Part shown: positions 138 to 18,140 of the stretch, piece by piece
Layout: the number at the start of each line of letters is the position of its first letter
How positions within the stretch are numbered: the stretch's first letter is position 1
Source of the DNA: an uncultured Lachnospiraceae bacterium
GTDB lineage: Bacteria; Bacillota_A; Clostridia; Lachnospirales; Lachnospiraceae
DNA length: 18,140 nucleotides
Assembly: GCA_947564305.1 (NCBI GenBank)
Contig: CANOBT010000109.1
Span: forward strand, 1-18,140
Reading direction: 5' to 3'
Translations under genes and position numbers: made by a program
Notes under the pieces: model-generated
What the model saw: only the letters and a program-made list of their open reading frames with translations
Databases searched by the model: none
What the model was told of the DNA's origin: nothing

Positions 138-205
138 ACCGATTAGGGACAAAAACCTACGGATTAGGGACAAGCCCACATTTTAGATAAAAAGTGTGCT
201 ATAGT
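138..205 (+). promoter_or_regulatory. Probable LytTR-activated promoter of the lanthipeptide operon
   Basis: Two copies of a 15-base element, AC(C/G)GATTAGGGACAA, lie at 138-152 and 159-173 and differ at one base. Their start-to-start distance is 21 bases, two helical turns, as for the direct repeats bound by LytTR response regulators in bacteriocin systems such as plantaricin. Downstream is a -10-like TATAGT at 200-205. The hexamer 17 bases before it (CACATT, 177-182) is not a -35 box, which fits an activator-dependent promoter with a start near 212. The operon encodes a LytTR regulator, so autoregulation is the natural reading. Binding is inferred; the repeats and spacing are directly visible. 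Confidence 0.62.
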
Positions 206-494: not shown

Positions 495-1085
495 ATGGAT
501 AAGGAAAAACTGGCGGTAGAAAGTATCAGGCTTGCGATGGCCAATCTTCAATTGAATGGCATGTCTCCGCAGGAAGTGCTCATAGGGAGTATCCGATATC
601 TGATAGAGTGCTGTGTTTCCGGGCAAAATGAGGGAGAAGAGTCACACAGTATGGAAACAGTCTCACAGAAAGAGGCAGCTATATTAAAACAGGCGATTCT
701 TTTTATCCAGGTTTATATTGAACTGGGATTTTCTTATGAAAGCCATGCAGGATTGTTTGAGCAGGTATTTCAGAAGGCAGGGTTGACGGAAGATGAGGTA
801 CTTTCTTTTAAACGGCGTTTTGCACGGAAGCTGAAGCTGAATAAATCCAATATTGACTCCGTACTTGGCAGATGGAATCCAAAGTATCATTCAGGTACAA
901 AAAAAGAAGTGATCAATGATATTATGGAGAAAATAAAAAATCATGAGCCAGGCGAATATTTTTACTACTCCAGGCAGAAATATTCTAAGCAGGAAGATGT
1001 CTATCAGTTAGTGGTGGAAGAGGACGGAAGTTATTTTTGCCATGTGAACAAGCAGAAGTATTATGAATTTGAGAACACGAGGTGA
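495..1085 (+). CDS. Unrecognised 196-aa cytoplasmic protein, first full gene of the lanthipeptide operon
   Basis: I do not recognise the family. The protein has no signal peptide or membrane segment. Residues 1-40 look helical. There is a charged stretch around residues 50-60, then a helical block (about 60-110), a basic stretch FKRRFARKLKLNK near 104-116, and a lysine- and tyrosine-rich C-terminus (about 150-196). The basic patch could contact nucleic acid, but no known DNA-binding fold is evident. The ATG at 495 is preceded by AAAGGGGG (483-490). The stop lies 6 bases before the response regulator, and the end of this gene (GAGGTGA, 1079-1085) supplies that gene's ribosome site, so the two are co-transcribed and probably coupled. 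The position suggests a regulatory accessory protein of the two-component system; this is inference from context only. Confidence 0.75.
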   Translation: MDKEKLAVESIRLAMANLQLNGMSPQEVLIGSIRYLIECCVSGQNEGEESHSMETVSQKEAAILKQAILFIQVYIELGFSYESHAGLFEQVFQKAGLTEDEVLSFKRRFARKLKLNKSNIDSVLGRWNPKYHSGTKKEVINDIMEKIKNHEPGEYFYYSRQKYSKQEDVYQLVVEEDGSYFCHVNKQKYYEFENTR

Positions 1086-1091
1086 GCAAAG

Positions 1092-1817
1092 ATGCAGAAA
1101 TATAAAGCGGCCATTGTGGATGACAGCCAGGATTATCGGGAAAAGGTTCAAACGGTCCTGCAGTCGATTGCCGAAAAATGTGAGAAAGCAATGGAGTGTA
1201 CGGAATTTTCCATGGCTGAGATGCTGGCATATGAACTGAGTTCAGGCGCTTATTTTGATATCTATGTCCTGGATATTGAGATGCCGGGGATGAACGGCAT
1301 GGAACTTGCACGCGGAATCAGGGAGAAGTATCCGGATGTCTGTATCATTTTTGTGACCTCATATTCCAGATTCGCCCTGGAGAGCTATGAAATTGACGCC
1401 TATCAGTACATATTGAAAGAGAAGCTGACAGAGCGGCTTCCGCGTGTTATGGAGAAGTTTTTCCGCAGGACAGCGGAGGAAACAGAGGATTCCTACTATA
1501 CGATTGAGACAAGCAGCAGAATGGAGAAAATTCGATTTAAGGATATCATCTGGATATACAAAAGCGTAAAAAATGCTGTGTTTGTGACAAAGGCGAAGTC
1601 GTATAAGCAGAGGATACCGCTGCAGGATATTTACAGAATGCTTCCACAAGGGGAATTCATATACATAGAGCGGGGAATCATTGTAAATATTTTGCACATC
1701 ACTGGTTTTGACGGGAATGAGATTGCACTTTCCAACGGTGAGGTTTTGAATGCCAGCAGGGCTTATCTCAAGAAAGTCAGGGAAGAAATTACAAGATACT
1801 GGAGCAGACAGATATAG
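1092..1817 (+). CDS. LytTR-family response regulator (AgrA/ComE-like)
   Basis: A 241-aa transcription factor with an N-terminal receiver domain (about 4-125) and a C-terminal LytTR DNA-binding domain (about 136-238). Visible receiver residues are the acidic pair D10-D11, phosphoacceptor D61 within YVLDIEMPGMNG, T89/S90 and K109. The LytTR part shows the usual order: a YYTIETSS strand, I(R)FKDIIWIYKS, FIYIERGIIVNILHI and the terminal NASRAYLKKVRE. Regulators of this class act as the output of peptide-pheromone sensor kinases and bind paired direct repeats; such repeats occur at 138-173. It lies 6 bases after the 196-aa gene and just before the histidine kinase. There is no sign of truncation. 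Confidence 0.93.
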   Translation: MQKYKAAIVDDSQDYREKVQTVLQSIAEKCEKAMECTEFSMAEMLAYELSSGAYFDIYVLDIEMPGMNGMELARGIREKYPDVCIIFVTSYSRFALESYEIDAYQYILKEKLTERLPRVMEKFFRRTAEETEDSYYTIETSSRMEKIRFKDIIWIYKSVKNAVFVTKAKSYKQRIPLQDIYRMLPQGEFIYIERGIIVNILHITGFDGNEIALSNGEVLNASRAYLKKVREEITRYWSRQI

Positions 1818-1910
1818 CGGACAAGGTGCATTTCAGCTTTGGACAGAAGAACGGTTAAAAAGATGCTTTATAGATTGGAAATAGTGGCGCAGGATTCTGG
1901 AGTTGGAATT

Positions 1911-3224
1911 ATGTTAAAAACATTAATATTAATTGGAAATGAGGCGTTTGGCCTGCTTCTTTGTATCTGTCTGGCTTATGGGATGCCCGAAGAAAAGATA
2001 GAAGAACGCACCGGAATACAGAAAATTTTTCTGCTGTTGGTAAGCACCGGCGTGATTGCCCTGAATGTGTGGAATCTGCGCTATCTTTATTATAACAGTT
2101 TCGTATGGATTCAGACGGATTTGTTTCTGATGTTTTTGTTCCGGTACAGTCCGGGCAGACACAATTTTATACGGGGCGGGATTGCAATATTGATAAAGCA
2201 TCTTACCATATATGTGGATTATGTGATCGGCTTTTTACTGGTGGGCGGCGGAAGAGTACGTTATCCGATGCGGACTGTCCTTTATAGCGAGAAGCTGGAG
2301 ATTATCATTATTTTTCTTGCAGTCAGAGCTGTGCTGCTCATCATCGTACTGGCAGCTCTTTCCAAAATAGGAGGGAGGTTTTCAGATTCCCGGCGGAACC
2401 GGGTGTTGTTGGTAACCCTGGATATTATCAGTTATATTGGTGTGTGCCTGATTCAGTATTTATTTTTAGGGGAAATTAATCATGTGCAGATTAACAGCTA
2501 TTATGTCGCACTCATGTTAGGGGTAATCCATTGCATTGTTTTTTTTATTTACGTGTCTGCGGTGAACAGGCGTGAAAAAGAGGAAAAGATTTATACAAAA
2601 AACAAATTAATGGAACTCAACTATCAAAAATTGTATGAAGAGCAAAAAAGGCTGGAGCAGACAGCGCATGATTTTAAAAATCATATCAATCTGATGATGA
2701 GGTATCTGGAAGAAGAAAAGTATGAGAAGGCGATAGAGTATGGACGGAAATTAGAAAATCCACTGGAAGTGATCAGCCAAAGAAGCTGGTCAGATAACAA
2801 AATTCTGGATACAATCCTGAATATTAAGCTGCTGGAGGCAAGAAAAAAGGAGATACAGATACATACGGAAATCGATAATATGGTGAACCTGCCGCTCTCA
2901 GATTATGATTTATGTGCAATCTTATCAAATCTGTTGGACAATGCGATTGAAGCCTGCGAGTATGTGGAACCGAAAAAGAGGGAGATTTCCGTATCCATAA
3001 AATCGATTGGACATTTGTTTATCATGAAAATTGTAAACAGTATGGAAAAGAAGCCGATCATAAGGAACGATAAGTTTCATACTACGAAAAGCGACAAGGA
3101 TGTCCATGGGATTGGATTGGAAAGTGTGGAAGCATCTATCAGTAAATATCAGGGAACCCTGCTGCTGGAGCATACCGAGGACCAGTTTTCGGCAGTGGTT
3201 TCAGTTACAGGAAAAAGTAATTAA
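1911..3224 (+). CDS. AgrC-type (HPK10, GHKL) sensor histidine kinase
   Basis: A membrane sensor kinase that probably detects an extracellular peptide and phosphorylates the adjacent LytTR regulator. The N-terminal ~215 residues hold about six or seven hydrophobic helices. They are followed by a coiled-coil-like linker (KLMELNYQKLYEEQKRLEQ), the HPK10 H-box HDFKNHI with the phosphoacceptor His at residue 253, an N-box LLDNAIEA, and a G-box HGIGLESV before the C-terminal ATPase end. The start is uncertain. ATG 1911 has GGAG 8 bases upstream and begins directly at the first helix. The same frame could open at TTG 1839 (AAGGTG upstream) or ATG 1863, adding 24 or 16 residues. No AgrB/AgrD pair is present, so the lanthipeptide encoded next is the best ligand candidate (inference). 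Confidence 0.9.
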   Translation: MLKTLILIGNEAFGLLLCICLAYGMPEEKIEERTGIQKIFLLLVSTGVIALNVWNLRYLYYNSFVWIQTDLFLMFLFRYSPGRHNFIRGGIAILIKHLTIYVDYVIGFLLVGGGRVRYPMRTVLYSEKLEIIIIFLAVRAVLLIIVLAALSKIGGRFSDSRRNRVLLVTLDIISYIGVCLIQYLFLGEINHVQINSYYVALMLGVIHCIVFFIYVSAVNRREKEEKIYTKNKLMELNYQKLYEEQKRLEQTAHDFKNHINLMMRYLEEEKYEKAIEYGRKLENPLEVISQRSWSDNKILDTILNIKLLEARKKEIQIHTEIDNMVNLPLSDYDLCAILSNLLDNAIEACEYVEPKKREISVSIKSIGHLFIMKIVNSMEKKPIIRNDKFHTTKSDKDVHGIGLESVEASISKYQGTLLLEHTEDQFSAVVSVTGKSN

Positions 3225-3248
3225 TTAAAAAAAACGGAGGAAAAACAA

Positions 3249-3401
3249 ATGCAGAATACAACACATAGAACAGAGTACATTGGAGATTTGAGAGCAGAAT
3301 TTCAGGAGATTGATAAGGCCTATGAGCATGAAAAGGCAGCAGAGGAAATCTTTTCCTTTACGGTAGACTGCTGTACGATTTATACACTTCTCTGCTGCTA
3401 A
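3249..3401 (+). CDS. lanA: Class II lanthipeptide precursor peptide (LanA)
   Basis: A 50-aa peptide with a perfect GGAGG at 3236-3240, 8 bases before its ATG, and only 13 bases before lanM. Residues 1-34 form an acidic, helix-prone leader (for example DLRAEFQEID at 13-22). The C-terminal core is SFTVDCCTIYTLLCC (36-50), with four Cys (41, 42, 49, 50) and four Ser/Thr (S36, T38, T43, T46): enough for four (methyl)lanthionine bridges. The core reads as two similar units, SxTxxCC then TxxTxxCC. No double-glycine (GG/GA) cleavage site is obvious; an Ala-Ala at 30-31 is the nearest small-residue pair. It does not match the lacticin 481 or mersacidin core patterns I know. Its identity as the LanM substrate rests on position plus composition. 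Sensing by the adjacent kinase is inferred. Confidence 0.86.
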   Translation: MQNTTHRTEYIGDLRAEFQEIDKAYEHEKAAEEIFSFTVDCCTIYTLLCC

Positions 3402-3414
3402 AGGACAGGCATGA

Positions 3415-6400
3415 ATGATGGATCAAAAGGGCTCATATTTAAGTGAACGGAATTATTTTACTGATGCCAGGAGTAAAGAGTCTGGAAAAACCGAATACTG
3501 GGAGGGGATTCTTGGAAAAGACAGGCTTTCACAGTTGGCAAAAGAGAATGAAAAAATAAGATTACATCTGGAGCAGGCACCGTACAGCGTTTTGAAAAAG
3601 AGAAAATTGTGGATAGAGACATCGGGGAAAAAGTACGGCAGGGAGAAGTTTACGGATATACTCAAAGGGGCGGAACCGTTGTTTGCACCTTTTTACCAGG
3701 ATATCCTTCAGGAAGGGCTGTCAAGATTCCGGCACAAAAGAATCACCGGAACCATCCCTTGTTCCGAACAGATTGAGAAAGATTTCCTGCGGTATACTAT
3801 GGATTGTCTGCAGAGAGTCTCTATCAGGGTCCTGATTTTGGAAATGCGTCAGATTAAAGAGGGGGACGGGCTCTGCGGAGAGGATGAAAGGGAAGAATAT
3901 CAGGATTTCCTGCGCCGGTATCTTGGGGATGAAAGCTATATCCATGGACTCTATGAACGCTATCCGGTATTATTTCGGATTCTGGAAGACCAGACAGAGC
4001 AGTGTGTGGATTATTTCTGCGAAATTATAGAACATCTGGAAACAGACAGGGAGGCTATTGAAACGCAGCTCCTGGGAGGGAAGTCTGTTACCATGCTTGG
4101 AAGTATCCGTTGTAAGCAGGGAGATGTACACCATCATGGAAAGAGCGTGGCGTCTGTCAATTTAAACGGGACAGAGGAGGTGCTTTATAAGCCCCATTCT
4201 CTGGACAATGAATGTATCTTTCAGGATCTTCTGAAAAGGGTCAGTGAAACGTATGGATTGTGGAATGAGAATATGGGTCTTAAGATTGTCAGCCGTCCGG
4301 ATTATGGTTGGGAGGAGAAGATATATTTTCAGGAGTGCGAGGCAGAGGGAGGGGTAAACCGGTTTTACGAAAGGGCGGGGATGCAGATTTTTCTGACCTG
4401 TCTTCTGCGGACGGTGGACCTGCACTGTGAAAATATGATTGCGCGGGGGGAATATCCGGTCCTGATCGACCTGGAGACATTGATTCATCTTACGGAGCAG
4501 GATACGAAACAGGATGAAGTATCCTGCTCCGTGTTAAGGTCAGGAATCCTGCCGGCATATCTGTCGGATGGCAAGGGAATCGGTCAGGATGTCAGCGCTT
4601 TGAGCGGCGAGGGCGGCAGGGAGAGCCAGATGATGATTCCGGTTATAAAAAATGCCTATACTTCACGAATGCGGATTGAGTACCGCCATGGAGTCATGGG
4701 ACAGACGCAGAACCGTGTGACGTATAAGGGAAGACCTGCACGAACCGCAGAGTATATGGAAGACTTGCTCCGTGGTTTCCGAAATGCCTATGAATGTGTG
4801 ATGGACAGCAAGGAATTGCAAAGCGTAATCCTGGAGATGGCAGAGGCCAGCGAGAGCCGTTATGTAGTTTCAGATACGATGAAATATGCGTCGCTGCTGA
4901 ACAGTTCTTATCACCCGGACCTTCTGGCAGACGGAGGAGATCGGGAACTGTTCCTTCATTCCGTCGGGTTAGTCGGAAAGACACGCAGAAAATGTCTGGC
5001 CGAATGTGAGACTGAGGCGATGCTGCGCGGTGACATTCCTTATTTTTATAGTAAAGGGCGGAATTTGATGTGTGAAAATCAGGTTTCTGCTCCCGATTAT
5101 TTTACGCATACACCGTGTCAGGCCGTCCAAAATAAAATGGCACAGTTAAGCCGGAGAGACGAACAGTTCCAGGTGAAGCTCATAGAGCTGTCAATTGCAA
5201 TTTCAGAAAAGCTTTGGAAAAGTATGCTCAATTCCGGTCGGAAAAGAAAGGACACGCAAGAGGATGCTATGAGCGGGGAACATTCAGATACGACAATCCT
5301 TTCTATCTGTGAAAAGATAGCAGGTCTCATTCTGGAAAATGTCTATGAGGATGAAGAGGGGAAACTGCAGATTCTGAGTATGGATATGTTGGAGCAGTCC
5401 AGAAGTAAGATCCGCAGGGTTAGCCGATACTTTTATGAAGGTATAGCAGGAATCGTCTTGTTTCTCTATGTGCTTGAAATGGAAAAAGCGCGGATGAACA
5501 AAACGGTGCCTGACAGAAAAGGGAGCACCCGGACCGTAAAAAAGGTATCAGAACGGCTCCTTGGGCAGTTAAAGGAGTATACAAAACATCTTGATATCTC
5601 AAAGGAAACACCAGAACTTCCCTCGGGGGAGCCGGGACGGACCGGAATGTTTGACGGGGAGTTCTCCATCGTATTTGCGTATCTTCTATTGTACGAGATT
5701 GGAAAAGAAGAGGAATACTTGGAGCTTGCGAAGCAGCATACAAAGAAGATACTGCCGCTCATACAAAAAGATAAAAATTTTGATTTGCTTGCAGGGAATG
5801 CAGGCGCAATCCTTGTCTTATTAAAATTATATGATATCACAAAGGACGGAGTATATCTAAGGATTGCCGCGGCAGCAGGAGATATCTTGTGCAGCGGAGC
5901 CGTAAAAATGGAATCCGGCGTCGGTTGGGCTGATTTCGGTAAAACGCCGCTGTGCGGCATGGCTCACGGGAACAGCGGGATACTGACCGCTCTTGCCAGG
6001 CTGTATGGGGAAACGAAAGAAACGAAATTTTACGATGTCTGCCTGCAATGTCTGGAGTACGAGGAAAGCAGGTATTCTAAGGAATTTCAGGACTGGAAGG
6101 ACCTTCGGAAAGTGGCGGCGGAATACGGACATGAAGACGGCCACGAAATGTCATGGTGCCATGGCTTTGGCGGGATTGCACTGTCACGGGTATTGGCGAT
6201 GGAAGCGCTGGACGGAAAAACAGGTGAAGAGACGGAACTGCTGCGGGGCTGTCTGGAGCGGGATATCAAGAGGGCGGTTCCCAAATTGGAAGAACATTTC
6301 CTGAGGCAGGGGATGTGTGTCTGTCATGGGACGATGGGAAACTATCGGATTATGAAGAAGCTGCAGGGATATTTTGATGAACAGACGTTAGAACGGGTGA

Positions 6401-6561
6401 GAGCGGACGTTTTTGAACAGGTCCTGTGTTGGGAGAAAGAGGAGCCGGACCTTCTGGTGCAGGAATACCATTCGCCGGGATTTATGAATGGACTGGCGGG
6501 GATTGGTTATTACTTGCTGAAAGAAATCGATGGGAGCTTGCCGGATATATTGGGATTGTGA
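3415..6561 (+). CDS. lanM: Class II lanthipeptide synthetase LanM
   Basis: A 1048-aa bifunctional enzyme that dehydrates Ser/Thr of the precursor via phosphorylation and elimination, and then cyclises with Cys thiols. The length is normal for LanM. The N-terminal dehydratase (DUF4135, lipid-kinase-like, roughly 120-620) shows a nucleotide-binding lysine in YKPHSL (K259), the catalytic D335-x-H337-x-x-N340 in VDLHCEN, and a metal Asp in LIDLET (D352). The C-terminal LanC-like cyclase (about 670-1048) shows GMAHGNSGI (848-856), SWCHGFGG (C915, H916) and CVCHGTMGN (C970, H971); the zinc ligands would be C915, C970 and H971. Adjacent ATGs at 3415 and 3418 both fit; AAAGGA at 3400-3405 favours 3415. 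All key catalytic residues are present, so it should be active. Confidence 0.97.
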   Translation: MMDQKGSYLSERNYFTDARSKESGKTEYWEGILGKDRLSQLAKENEKIRLHLEQAPYSVLKKRKLWIETSGKKYGREKFTDILKGAEPLFAPFYQDILQEGLSRFRHKRITGTIPCSEQIEKDFLRYTMDCLQRVSIRVLILEMRQIKEGDGLCGEDEREEYQDFLRRYLGDESYIHGLYERYPVLFRILEDQTEQCVDYFCEIIEHLETDREAIETQLLGGKSVTMLGSIRCKQGDVHHHGKSVASVNLNGTEEVLYKPHSLDNECIFQDLLKRVSETYGLWNENMGLKIVSRPDYGWEEKIYFQECEAEGGVNRFYERAGMQIFLTCLLRTVDLHCENMIARGEYPVLIDLETLIHLTEQDTKQDEVSCSVLRSGILPAYLSDGKGIGQDVSALSGEGGRESQMMIPVIKNAYTSRMRIEYRHGVMGQTQNRVTYKGRPARTAEYMEDLLRGFRNAYECVMDSKELQSVILEMAEASESRYVVSDTMKYASLLNSSYHPDLLADGGDRELFLHSVGLVGKTRRKCLAECETEAMLRGDIPYFYSKGRNLMCENQVSAPDYFTHTPCQAVQNKMAQLSRRDEQFQVKLIELSIAISEKLWKSMLNSGRKRKDTQEDAMSGEHSDTTILSICEKIAGLILENVYEDEEGKLQILSMDMLEQSRSKIRRVSRYFYEGIAGIVLFLYVLEMEKARMNKTVPDRKGSTRTVKKVSERLLGQLKEYTKHLDISKETPELPSGEPGRTGMFDGEFSIVFAYLLLYEIGKEEEYLELAKQHTKKILPLIQKDKNFDLLAGNAGAILVLLKLYDITKDGVYLRIAAAAGDILCSGAVKMESGVGWADFGKTPLCGMAHGNSGILTALARLYGETKETKFYDVCLQCLEYEESRYSKEFQDWKDLRKVAAEYGHEDGHEMSWCHGFGGIALSRVLAMEALDGKTGEETELLRGCLERDIKRAVPKLEEHFLRQGMCVCHGTMGNYRIMKKLQGYFDEQTLERVRADVFEQVLCWEKEEPDLLVQEYHSPGFMNGLAGIGYYLLKEIDGSLPDILGL

Positions 6562-6648
6562 TGATGCGGGCCACTGGAAATATCGTGGTTCAATAGATTC
6601 GGAAAGAATAGTATTTTTATTGTGGGATTTGCTGGCAGAATGGAGGTT

Positions 6649-6843
6649 ATGTTGAAAGAGGAAAAGAGAAAAAAATTGCTGGTTATACTATTATTGAATA
6701 GCGTGTTGTCTGCTTCATTGGCGTATGGTTTTATGGGCGGGACAGAAGTTTTGGTATATATAAAAATATTATGTGGATTTATATTCTCATTAACGCCATT
6801 ATTGGTAATCCGGTTAATTATTGTAGATTTTAAGAATTATTGA
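6649..6843 (+). CDS. Small two-helix membrane protein, unrecognised
   Basis: A protein of about 64 residues with a basic N-terminus (KEEKRKK) followed by two hydrophobic helices (about 11-29 and 35-57) and a short charged end. The start is not settled: GGAGG at 6642-6646 sits 2 bases before ATG 6649 and 5 bases before TTG 6652. A GTG at 6622 would add nine residues but has no clear ribosome site. It lies 87 bases downstream of lanM on the same strand, in sequence more AT-rich than lanM. Small membrane proteins next to bacteriocin genes are often immunity factors, so self-protection is a reasonable guess, but no family is recognised and a role in export or signalling is equally possible. Confidence 0.6.
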   Translation: MLKEEKRKKLLVILLLNSVLSASLAYGFMGGTEVLVYIKILCGFIFSLTPLLVIRLIIVDFKNY

Positions 6844-6928
6844 GTGAAGTGTTTGGGGGATTAATTGATTACGAGGTAGATGACAGAAGATCTTCATGAT
6901 CGGGTCAGAACAGGAGGAATTAAATTTT

Positions 6929-8002
6929 ATGGCTAAGAGGATGAAACGCATATTCATATGTATTATAGTTTTACTGGGGATAACATTATCCGTATTTGTG
7001 TCTGGTTCCAAAAATCAGAGTCAGGAAATCCTTGCTCCAATTGAGGTCGGCGGTATAATGACAGCTCTACATGATGCGTGTGCAACCGTGGTAGAAGTAG
7101 ATTATGATACAGGTATCCTCTTAGCCGAACTGGAGAAAGATTATGAAAAGATAGCATATCTTGAGGAAAAAGGTTTATCGGATTTAAATTATAAATTTTT
7201 TAATAAGAAAGAAGTTGTTCTGGAGTGTTCTAAGAATAAGATTTCTGAAAGTCATGTGAAGGATGGAGACAAAATATCTTTTTCGCTCTTTCTTTTTGAT
7301 ATCACTGATGATGAGGCTCCTGTACCGATACAGGAAATAAGAGTCTGTCCAAAAGAGGGCATTGAGAGCGCTGCGGCAGGCTTCTTTGAAGGAAAGTATG
7401 AATACCGCAAAGAGGATACATATTTTCATGGAGAAACGAAACTTTCTTCAACAGTTACAGAGGGAACAGTTATATATTGGCCCTATCTGGAACACATAAA
7501 AATAGTGTCGTCATCAGAGCCAACTTTGTGGGATGAAATGTATCTCAACGGATATGGCCAGGCATACAAGAAAGTAGTGGATGCAAAAATCCATATCGGT
7601 GATGAATGGCAGGATACAAAAATGAATCGGGAATATCCATATGGATATGGCGAAGATTTGGAGTTTAAATTTGACAGGGAAGAAGAGGCGGATGAACGTA
7701 AGATAGAAGTGTATACGACGGAATATACGGTAGACGTTTCAGAAAACTTTCGGTTGGAAGAGGAATTGAAAGCAACTGTCACGCAGGAATATTTTTTAGA
7801 GAAAGACTCAAATACGCTGATTAAAATCAGTACGGACTTGACAGATTTAAATGAGAAACTATTTATTGCGAATGATATTTCTGTAAATGGCGCTGCATTG
7901 GATACAGCACAGAAAAAGGCGGAAGAGGAAACAGGGTTATCAGAAATCGTGACATTGGAAATATTCAATTATGATGGTGATATTTCTATAGAGATTCCAT
8001 AA
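6929..8002 (+). CDS. Exported or membrane-anchored protein of unknown function
   Basis: A 357-aa protein starting at ATG 6929 with AGGAGG at 6912-6917. The N-terminus MAKRMKRIF followed by a hydrophobic run to about residue 25 is a signal peptide or anchor. There is no lipobox Cys, so it may be cleaved by signal peptidase I or remain anchored. The rest is acidic, soluble and beta-rich in appearance, with no motif I can name; repeated pairs such as YGYGEDLEFKFD and TEYTVDVSEN do not identify a family. It is 85 bases after the small membrane protein and ends just before a strong terminator, so it is the last gene of the lanthipeptide transcript. Immunity, peptide maturation and display at the cell surface are all possible; none is shown. 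Confidence 0.78.
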   Translation: MAKRMKRIFICIIVLLGITLSVFVSGSKNQSQEILAPIEVGGIMTALHDACATVVEVDYDTGILLAELEKDYEKIAYLEEKGLSDLNYKFFNKKEVVLECSKNKISESHVKDGDKISFSLFLFDITDDEAPVPIQEIRVCPKEGIESAAAGFFEGKYEYRKEDTYFHGETKLSSTVTEGTVIYWPYLEHIKIVSSSEPTLWDEMYLNGYGQAYKKVVDAKIHIGDEWQDTKMNREYPYGYGEDLEFKFDREEEADERKIEVYTTEYTVDVSENFRLEEELKATVTQEYFLEKDSNTLIKISTDLTDLNEKLFIANDISVNGAALDTAQKKAEEETGLSEIVTLEIFNYDGDISIEIP

Positions 8003-18088: not shown

Positions 18089-18140
18089 GGCTCCGTGGTC
18101 AAGCGGTTAAGACATCGCCCTTTCACGGCGGTAACACGGG
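18089..18140 (+). tRNA. tRNA-Glu (anticodon TTC), cut by the window end
   Basis: GGCTCCG (18089-18095) is the 5' acceptor strand, followed by a D arm (GGTCAAGCGGTTAAGAC) and an anticodon stem TCGCC (18115-18119) / GGCGG (18127-18131) around the loop CTTTCAC with anticodon TTC at 18122-18124. The sequence then runs into the variable region and the first strand of the T stem (CACGGG). The T loop and 3' acceptor strand lie beyond the window. The identity elements match bacterial glutamate tRNA. Confidence 0.93.

Follow-up and report, generated by a model that had tools for sequence, protein, structure and literature searches.

A LanM-associated lanthipeptide precursor beside its own LytTR/GHKL two-component system in Lachnospiraceae, a candidate self-regulated signal

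The window, by which we mean the whole 18,140-nucleotide stretch of DNA from an uncultured Lachnospiraceae bacterium that was analysed here, carries on its forward strand a cassette in what proved to be its usual order: an orf495-type protein, a LytTR regulator, a multi-pass GHKL kinase, a lanthipeptide precursor and a LanM synthetase. The first gene, orf495 (495..1085), encodes 196 residues with a helical first half and beta strands at the C-terminus; it has no Pfam or NCBIfam match above cut-off or below E = 0.05, and its AlphaFold2 model (pLDDT 86) gave no clear fold match in a structure comparison. The response regulator (1092..1817) joins a receiver domain (PF00072) to a LytTR DNA-binding domain (PF04397). 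It is followed by the GHKL histidine kinase (1839..3224; PF14501, 1.3e-24), which has an HDFKNH H-box and about six hydrophobic segments by simple hydropathy, and the true start of which, as the starts of its homologues suggest, lies near 1911. The precursor gene (3249..3401) has a good ribosome-binding site, GGAGG at 3236..3240, 8 nt ahead of its ATG, and its end is separated by 13 nt from the gene for LanM, a class II lanthipeptide synthetase of 1048 residues (3415..6561). Two accessory reading frames lie behind LanM on the same strand: a hydrophobic ORF of 73 residues (6622..6843) that has no tblastn match in the related loci L001-L004, and a 368-residue protein with an N-terminal hydrophobic segment (6896..8002), the C-terminal part of which is kept in L002 (67%) and L004 (26%), with no tblastn match in L001 or L003.

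Translation of 3249-3401 gives the 50-residue precursor MQNTTHRTEYIGDLRAEFQEIDKAYEHEKAAEEIFSFTVDCCTIYTLLCC, in which we infer a leader of about residues 1-35 and a core of about residues 36-50 (3354-3398). It ends in SFTVDCCTIYTLLCC and, as an earlier note on this DNA stated, has four Cys and four Ser/Thr in its final 15 residues. Its assignment as a LanM-associated lanthipeptide precursor is borne out by the LanM gene (TIGR03897) directly 3' of it. A protein database yielded 2 homologues to a single-sequence search and 13 to a profile of six sequences, and the copies in L002 and L003, the one pair compared, show 2 synonymous and no non-synonymous differences. Because of these homologues and the purely synonymous differences we regard 3249-3401 as a real gene. 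It belongs to no curated family by Pfam at E<=0.1 or NCBIfam at E<=1, scans in which weak matches can be lost to HMMER filters, and neither database matched it to a lacticin 481 or mersacidin precursor family. To this extent the earlier interpretation is supported.

The synthetase matches TIGR03897 at 712 bits (cut-off 304) and has LicM2 (6st5) as its nearest solved structure. All thirteen positions that we take, from LanM structures, to serve catalysis or zinc binding are present (D237, H239, K259, D335, H337, N340, D352, E354, H851, C915, H916, C970 and H971), and they are identical in 20 of 22 cassette LanM, the other two sequences breaking off before the last sites. What class II biosynthesis asks of a locus, namely a synthetase with dehydratase and zinc-binding cyclase residues and an adjacent precursor with Ser/Thr and Cys in its core, is present in the window. 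In L024 (8145-16736) the LanM gene is broken up by other genes that have been inserted into it, which form two pairs between 9279 and 13946; one of these pairs has a further copy at 1486-3822.

We compared 22 cassette loci (the window, L001-L004, L020-L029 and L051-L057). LanM follows the precursor in all 22. Wherever upstream sequence is available, regulator and kinase stand ahead of this pair (21 of 21 loci), the contig of L023 ending too early and the kinase of L056 being split over two ORFs. Of these 21 loci, 15 have an orf495 homologue ahead of the main cassette. Four loci came from named genomes by way of LanM alignment, among them Schaedlerella arabinosiphila DSM 106076 (Lachnospiraceae). 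When 397 Lachnospiraceae genomes were searched, a precursor profile found the family in 11 genomes and a 24-sequence profile in 16 (18 places); a full LanM above the cut-off occurs in 27 of the 397, and all 16 cassette genomes are among these 27. Since precursor matches in 391 genomes sampled from the class were limited to the centre genome itself and one false match, the cassette family appears, as far as sampled, to be confined to Lachnospiraceae. Its surroundings vary: the window and L001 have pyr and esterase-like genes beside the cassette, L002 and L004 have a gene that looks radA-like by eye, and other loci have other neighbours. The flanking esterase-like, acyltransferase-like and pyr genes of the window are 81-91% identical to those of L001, from an uncultured Lachnospiraceae. 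Genomes G001 and G290 hold two modules each. In L053 (3142-13471) the first cassette is followed by another orf495-regulator-kinase set, and L055 and L052 have a second regulator or regulator/kinase.

The kinases are more alike in their catalytic than in their sensory parts. Among 22 of them, a set that includes the second modules of L053 and L055 and lacks L023 and L056, mean identity is 0.185 in the sensor halves versus 0.347 in the kinase halves, with five to nine hydrophobic segments by simple hydropathy. An HDxKNH-type H-box is matched in 14 of the 22 and DNA[IL]EA in 19, motifs that mark the AgrC-like kinase class. Dedicated signal-receptor pairs often co-vary; here the divergence of the core does not follow that of the sensor (r = 0.12; partial r = -0.11, a value equalled or exceeded in 1789 of 2000 permutations), in a test made weak by a compared core of only 16 residues and based on 19 of the 22 loci (L003, with the precursor of L002, L023, with no kinase, and L056, with its kinase in two ORFs, were dropped). 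The terminal T-[IL]-x-C-C is nearly constant while the sensors drop below 20% identity.

Ahead of orf495, on the forward strand at 141..173, the element GATTAGGGACAA occurs twice (141-152 and 162-173) with a period of 21 bp. Its 10-bp part TTAGGGACAA repeats with 0 mismatches, where shuffled sequences lead one to expect 0.01 matches at up to 3 mismatches, and the repeat is kept with this period at the homologous place in L001-L004, the surrounding DNA having otherwise changed. A -10-like hexamer, TATAGT (200..205, forward strand), lies 26 nt after the repeat, at a spacing similar to that in L001-L004; a consensus promoter scan of the window listed nothing at 200-205, as would fit an activator-dependent start. 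LytTR regulators usually bind two half-sites spaced by two turns of the helix. We scored the motif GGACAA-N15-GGACAA, out of 12, in 23 upstream regions (21 loci, that is all but L023, plus the second sets of L052 and L053, some gene starts being approximate) and in first-order random sequences; the scoring was not blind, as GGAC repeats in L020, L025, L026 and L054 had already been noticed. At period 21, 11 of the 23 regions score at least 10 (random mean 0.8), other periods from 12 to 33 give 0-6 regions, and 12 regions stay below that score. Among the 18 regions outside the window's own group, 6 score at least 10 (random mean 0.74), against 0-4 at the remaining periods between 12 and 40. A score of at least 11 is attained by 4 of them (L020, L026, L054 and L055), against 0-1 at other periods; in random sequences the mean for this score is 0.03 and the maximum 1 in 500, so that none of the 500 gives 4. 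We consider 141-173 a candidate LytTR operator of the cassette. In S. arabinosiphila a second GGACAA-N15-GGACAA site lies 2.5 Mb away (L030:9330-9360; G001:C1:5921329 onward), ahead of genes at L030:9784-11575 for a small membrane ORF, an ABC ATPase (PF00005) and a 370-aa ORF with no Pfam match; these are a possible further member of the regulon, perhaps an exporter.

The core was compared across 31 distinct precursors in window numbering, counted backwards from the terminal CC and leaving out P0130 and P0134, a near-copy and a fragment of the L002 precursor. Ser/Thr is found at position 36 in 29 of the 31 and at 38 in all, and Cys41 in 29; S/T46, C49 and C50 each occur in 31 of 31, a conservation of the end that is partly selected, as the precursors were found with family profiles and those read from DNA were picked as frames ending in CC. 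The pattern [ST]x[ST]xxCxxxx[ST]xxCC fits 28 precursors, the exceptions being P0132, L026 and L052. With these six positions kept, the constant set of three Ser/Thr and three Cys suggests three rings. In lacticin 481 the first Thr of TxSxEC is joined to the Cys of that motif, while of the two terminal Cys the first is linked to the second Ser/Thr and the last to a third Ser; by analogy, we favour S36-C41, T38-C49 and T46-C50 as the probable connectivity. In the window the additional C42 and T43 may form a fourth ring.

As a control we examined 12 ordinary LanM loci (L100-L111) from the 11 genomes of the 397 that have LanM and no cassette, a set in which L102 is a 6.4-kb contig that cannot be judged, L100 and L101 are near-identical, and L105 and L106 come from one genome. 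A C39-ABC transporter lies within the fetched stretch in 10 of these 12, ten such proteins from nine loci being confirmed by Pfam. Fourteen control precursors were picked by eye, a third one of L106 being left out and none being recognised in L105, L108, L109 or L111; a G[GAS] pair occurs somewhere in all 14, and T-x-[ST]-x-E-C, always with Glu, in 9. An orphan LanM in L109 (3248-6253), from a genome without the cassette, stands beside genes that look pilus-like by eye, and neither precursor nor C39 transporter was seen there.

This control bears on the earlier statement that the core has no TxS/TxEC motif, which is doubtful: SFTVDC fits the broader [ST]x[ST]x[DE]C, with Ser and Asp replacing the usual Thr and Glu. 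T-x-S/T-x-E-C binds lipid II, and its acidic residue probably matters for this. The broader motif is found in 8 of the 31 cassette precursors, and residue 40 is acidic in 9, of which 8 have Cys41; since the window keeps Asp40, a lipid II-type target is possible for its peptide. In keeping with lipid II binding by T-x-S/T-x-E-C, passages in the literature propose ring A as the lipid II-binding part (PMC5141572) and give TVSx[ED]C as a common class II motif (PMC13289728). One 76-aa control precursor (L100:10508-10738, L101:6573-6803), adjoining LanM and a C39 transporter, has a PAGN leader, a GAG motif, C-T-G-T-A-E-C and a terminal TIICC, and when it is aligned with five cassette precursors the leader glycine and glutamate, T38, C41, T46, C49 and C50 line up. 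From this alignment, the mostly non-acidic residue 40 and the lack of a G[GAS] pair between leader and core, the cassette peptides would seem to be reduced lantibiotics that have relaxed the acidic residue linked to lipid II.

A G[G/A/S] pair between leader and core is found in 0 of the 31 cassette precursors, and G[GAS] anywhere in 4, always within the core. With an HMM of the peptidase region, derived from ten control transporters, 13 proteins are detected in the control loci and no C39 peptidase in the 22 cassette loci. Across 19 host genomes, which cover 21 of the 22 loci, the Pfam C39 model gives strong C39-ABC matches (E<1e-30) in 5 and weak ones in 6 more, none within the fetched cassette loci. 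The Gly-Gly-type cleavage site and C39 transporter that characterise lacticin 481 and mersacidin are absent from the cassette precursors and loci. The protein at L021:1699-2448, downstream of LanM, is a Peptidase_C39_2 (PF13529), a different family, and could be a leader protease there. ABC ATPases occur somewhere in the fetched stretch of 8 of the 22 loci (six of the eight checked with Pfam), at varying places, and the window has none; the cassette loci share, therefore, no constant immunity transporter (LanFEG), though individual loci may have one. In L027 (1721-5263) an ABC ATPase (PF00005) lies 3.6 kb behind LanM with membrane-like ORFs between, possibly genes for immunity or export.

The gene neighbourhood best supports the reading, raised in the earlier note, of a signal rather than an antibiotic. 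We think it somewhat likelier than an even chance that the precursor yields a reduced, LanM-cyclised lanthipeptide that is the autoinducer of its own kinase, within a self-regulated cassette of Lachnospiraceae. The layout is that of a pheromone circuit, because the precursor lies between its own kinase and LanM, a promoter candidate could be read by the regulator, no C39 exporter accompanies it, and some genomes hold two modules. We also count in its favour the fixed gene order in 21 of 21 loci despite different genomic surroundings, the lower likeness of the sensor half, the period-21 GGACAA repeats, the intact LanM positions, the lack of a Gly-Gly-type site before the core and the precedent that lanthipeptides can act as signals (PMC10301443). 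Against it we count that core and sensor do not co-vary and the C-terminus is nearly constant, that neither an exporter nor a leader protease was identified and ABC ATPases occur in 8 of 22 loci, that the repeat is below 10/12 in 12 of 23 upstream regions, and that Asp40 of the window keeps a lipid II-type target conceivable.

Under this proposal, in which modification, ring pattern, leader removal, export, receptor binding and induction are all inferred, LanM would bind the leader, conserved around G-D-L-x-x-E-F-x-E, dehydrate the three conserved Ser/Thr and join each to a conserved Cys. The core would amount to the TxTxEC-type ring and C-terminal CC of an ordinary class II lantibiotic, shortened and with its acidic residue mostly lost. 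Once its leader is removed, the peptide would be exported in some way that does not involve a C39 transporter of the cassette, and the mature peptide of about 15 residues would bind the adjacent multi-pass kinase; the LytTR regulator would then bind the GGACAA repeats and switch on the whole cassette, a positive feedback.

The strongest alternative, which we consider unlikely and yet far from negligible, is a miniature antibiotic: a shortened peptide of the lacticin 481/mersacidin type that would engage lipid II via S36-x-T38-x-D40-C41, with the two-component system controlling production only. Many lantibiotics are indeed regulated by two-component systems; S-F-T-V-D-C resembles the motif of most ordinary precursors from the same sample; the 76-aa precursor of L100/L101, which has a C39 transporter nearby, is similar in its PAG-type leader, in T-G-T-A-E-C and in ending with TIICC; and the ABC ATPases within reach in some loci could serve immunity. 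However, [ST]x[ST]x[DE]C occurs in only 8 of the 31 cassette precursors, neither a C39 transporter nor a Gly-Gly-type site before the core is present, and it is regulation and modification that are constant in the cassette, whereas the ABC genes are not.

We give little credence to an intracellular regulator, in which LanM, or a modified peptide that is not exported, acts inside the cell like CA_C0082 of Clostridium acetobutylicum. No dedicated exporter was found for the cassette, and passages of PMC10301443 describe Clostridium LanM-like proteins next to agr that lack catalytic residues, of which CA_C0082 is a quorum-sensing effector that does not make the signal. However, its homologues are there described as 670-728 aa long and without zinc and dehydratase residues (PMC10301443, in part), whereas the window LanM is intact at 1048 aa and every cassette has its own Cys-rich precursor.

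Least credible of all is the earlier note's model of a structurally new lanthipeptide with two stacked modules and four nested rings (T38-C41 within S36-C42, T46-C49 within T43-C50), for which all eight required residues occur in the window, but the complete CC[ST]xx[ST]xxCC layout is found in 1 of the 31 distinct precursors, that of the window alone, with Cys42 in 3 (one of them, P0132, having Trp at 41), Ser/Thr43 in 11, and Glu at 43 in P0002, the nearest relative, despite its C42. The search profiles contained the C42 and T43 of the window, yet neither is conserved among the relatives.

Returning to the autoinducer, we hold more tentatively, at a little under an even chance, that these cassettes encode a widespread family of dedicated lanthionine-bridged pheromones, in which the lipid II-binding half of a lantibiotic has been cut to about 15 residues, transporter and cleavage site have been lost, and LanM replaces AgrB in a LytTR/GHKL circuit. 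If this is true, most LanM-bearing species in the 397-genome sample use LanM for signalling and not for killing, by an export route not yet described for class II lanthipeptides.

The cassette shares with lacticin 481 and mersacidin the LanM partner and an [ST]x[ST]x[DE]C motif ahead of two Cys at the C-terminus. Typical members of those groups, and likewise the ordinary loci here, have the acidic residue, a Gly-Gly-type site and a C39 LanT, whereas the cassette core has only about 15 residues with the acidic residue mostly lost, and both the site and LanT are absent. Mersacidin has reportedly been described as autoinducing (by Schmitz et al. in 2006). The cassette resembles Agr (AgrB/D/C/A) in that a short precursor is accompanied by a LytTR regulator and a multi-pass GHKL kinase, and in having a direct-repeat operator candidate ahead of its own operon. 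Agr peptides are closed as thiolactones and AgrD has a C-terminal tail; in the cassette LanM replaces thiolactone formation and the precursor ends with the core. No AgrB is found among the scanned window proteins, and AgrB (PF04647) is present in only 4 of the 19 host genomes. CA_C0082 resembles the cassette as a LanM-family gene tied to an AgrCA-type signalling locus, but proteins of its type are encoded downstream of agr genes, where AgrD serves as signal, according to passages of PMC10301443, while the cassette LanM has its own precursor. The same passages state that lanthipeptides can act as signals (PMC10301443). Ordinary Lachnospiraceae LanM clusters (lah and L100-L111) share host family and class II chemistry with the cassette; the lah cluster of Lachnospiraceae strain C6A11 is described, in part of PMC6363468, as having double-Gly leaders and a C39 transporter, unlike the cassette.

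Among the papers listed by our literature searches none is on a LytTR-GHKL-precursor-LanM cassette, and the term LytTR is absent from the main text of PMC13289728, PMC12715929 and PMC7268733. The parts are individually of known kinds; what appears to be new is how they are combined, that LanT is lost and how far the family is spread. Class II lanthipeptides are usually mined as antibiotics through LanM with LanT and a Gly-Gly leader, and mining of this kind would score the cassette as incomplete or overlook it. If the peptide is a signal, gut Lachnospiraceae would have a peptide quorum-sensing language that agr searches have missed, and a protease-resistant inducer would be at hand for circuits in commensals; it would also have to be asked how a lanthipeptide is exported when LanT is lacking.

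Two further features lie near the far end of the window. The protein encoded at 16711-17895 matches HipA_C and PI3/PI4-kinase weakly, with scores that do not reach the curated cut-offs, and at 18089-18140 is the start of a tRNA gene (Rfam RF00005) that is cut by the window end.
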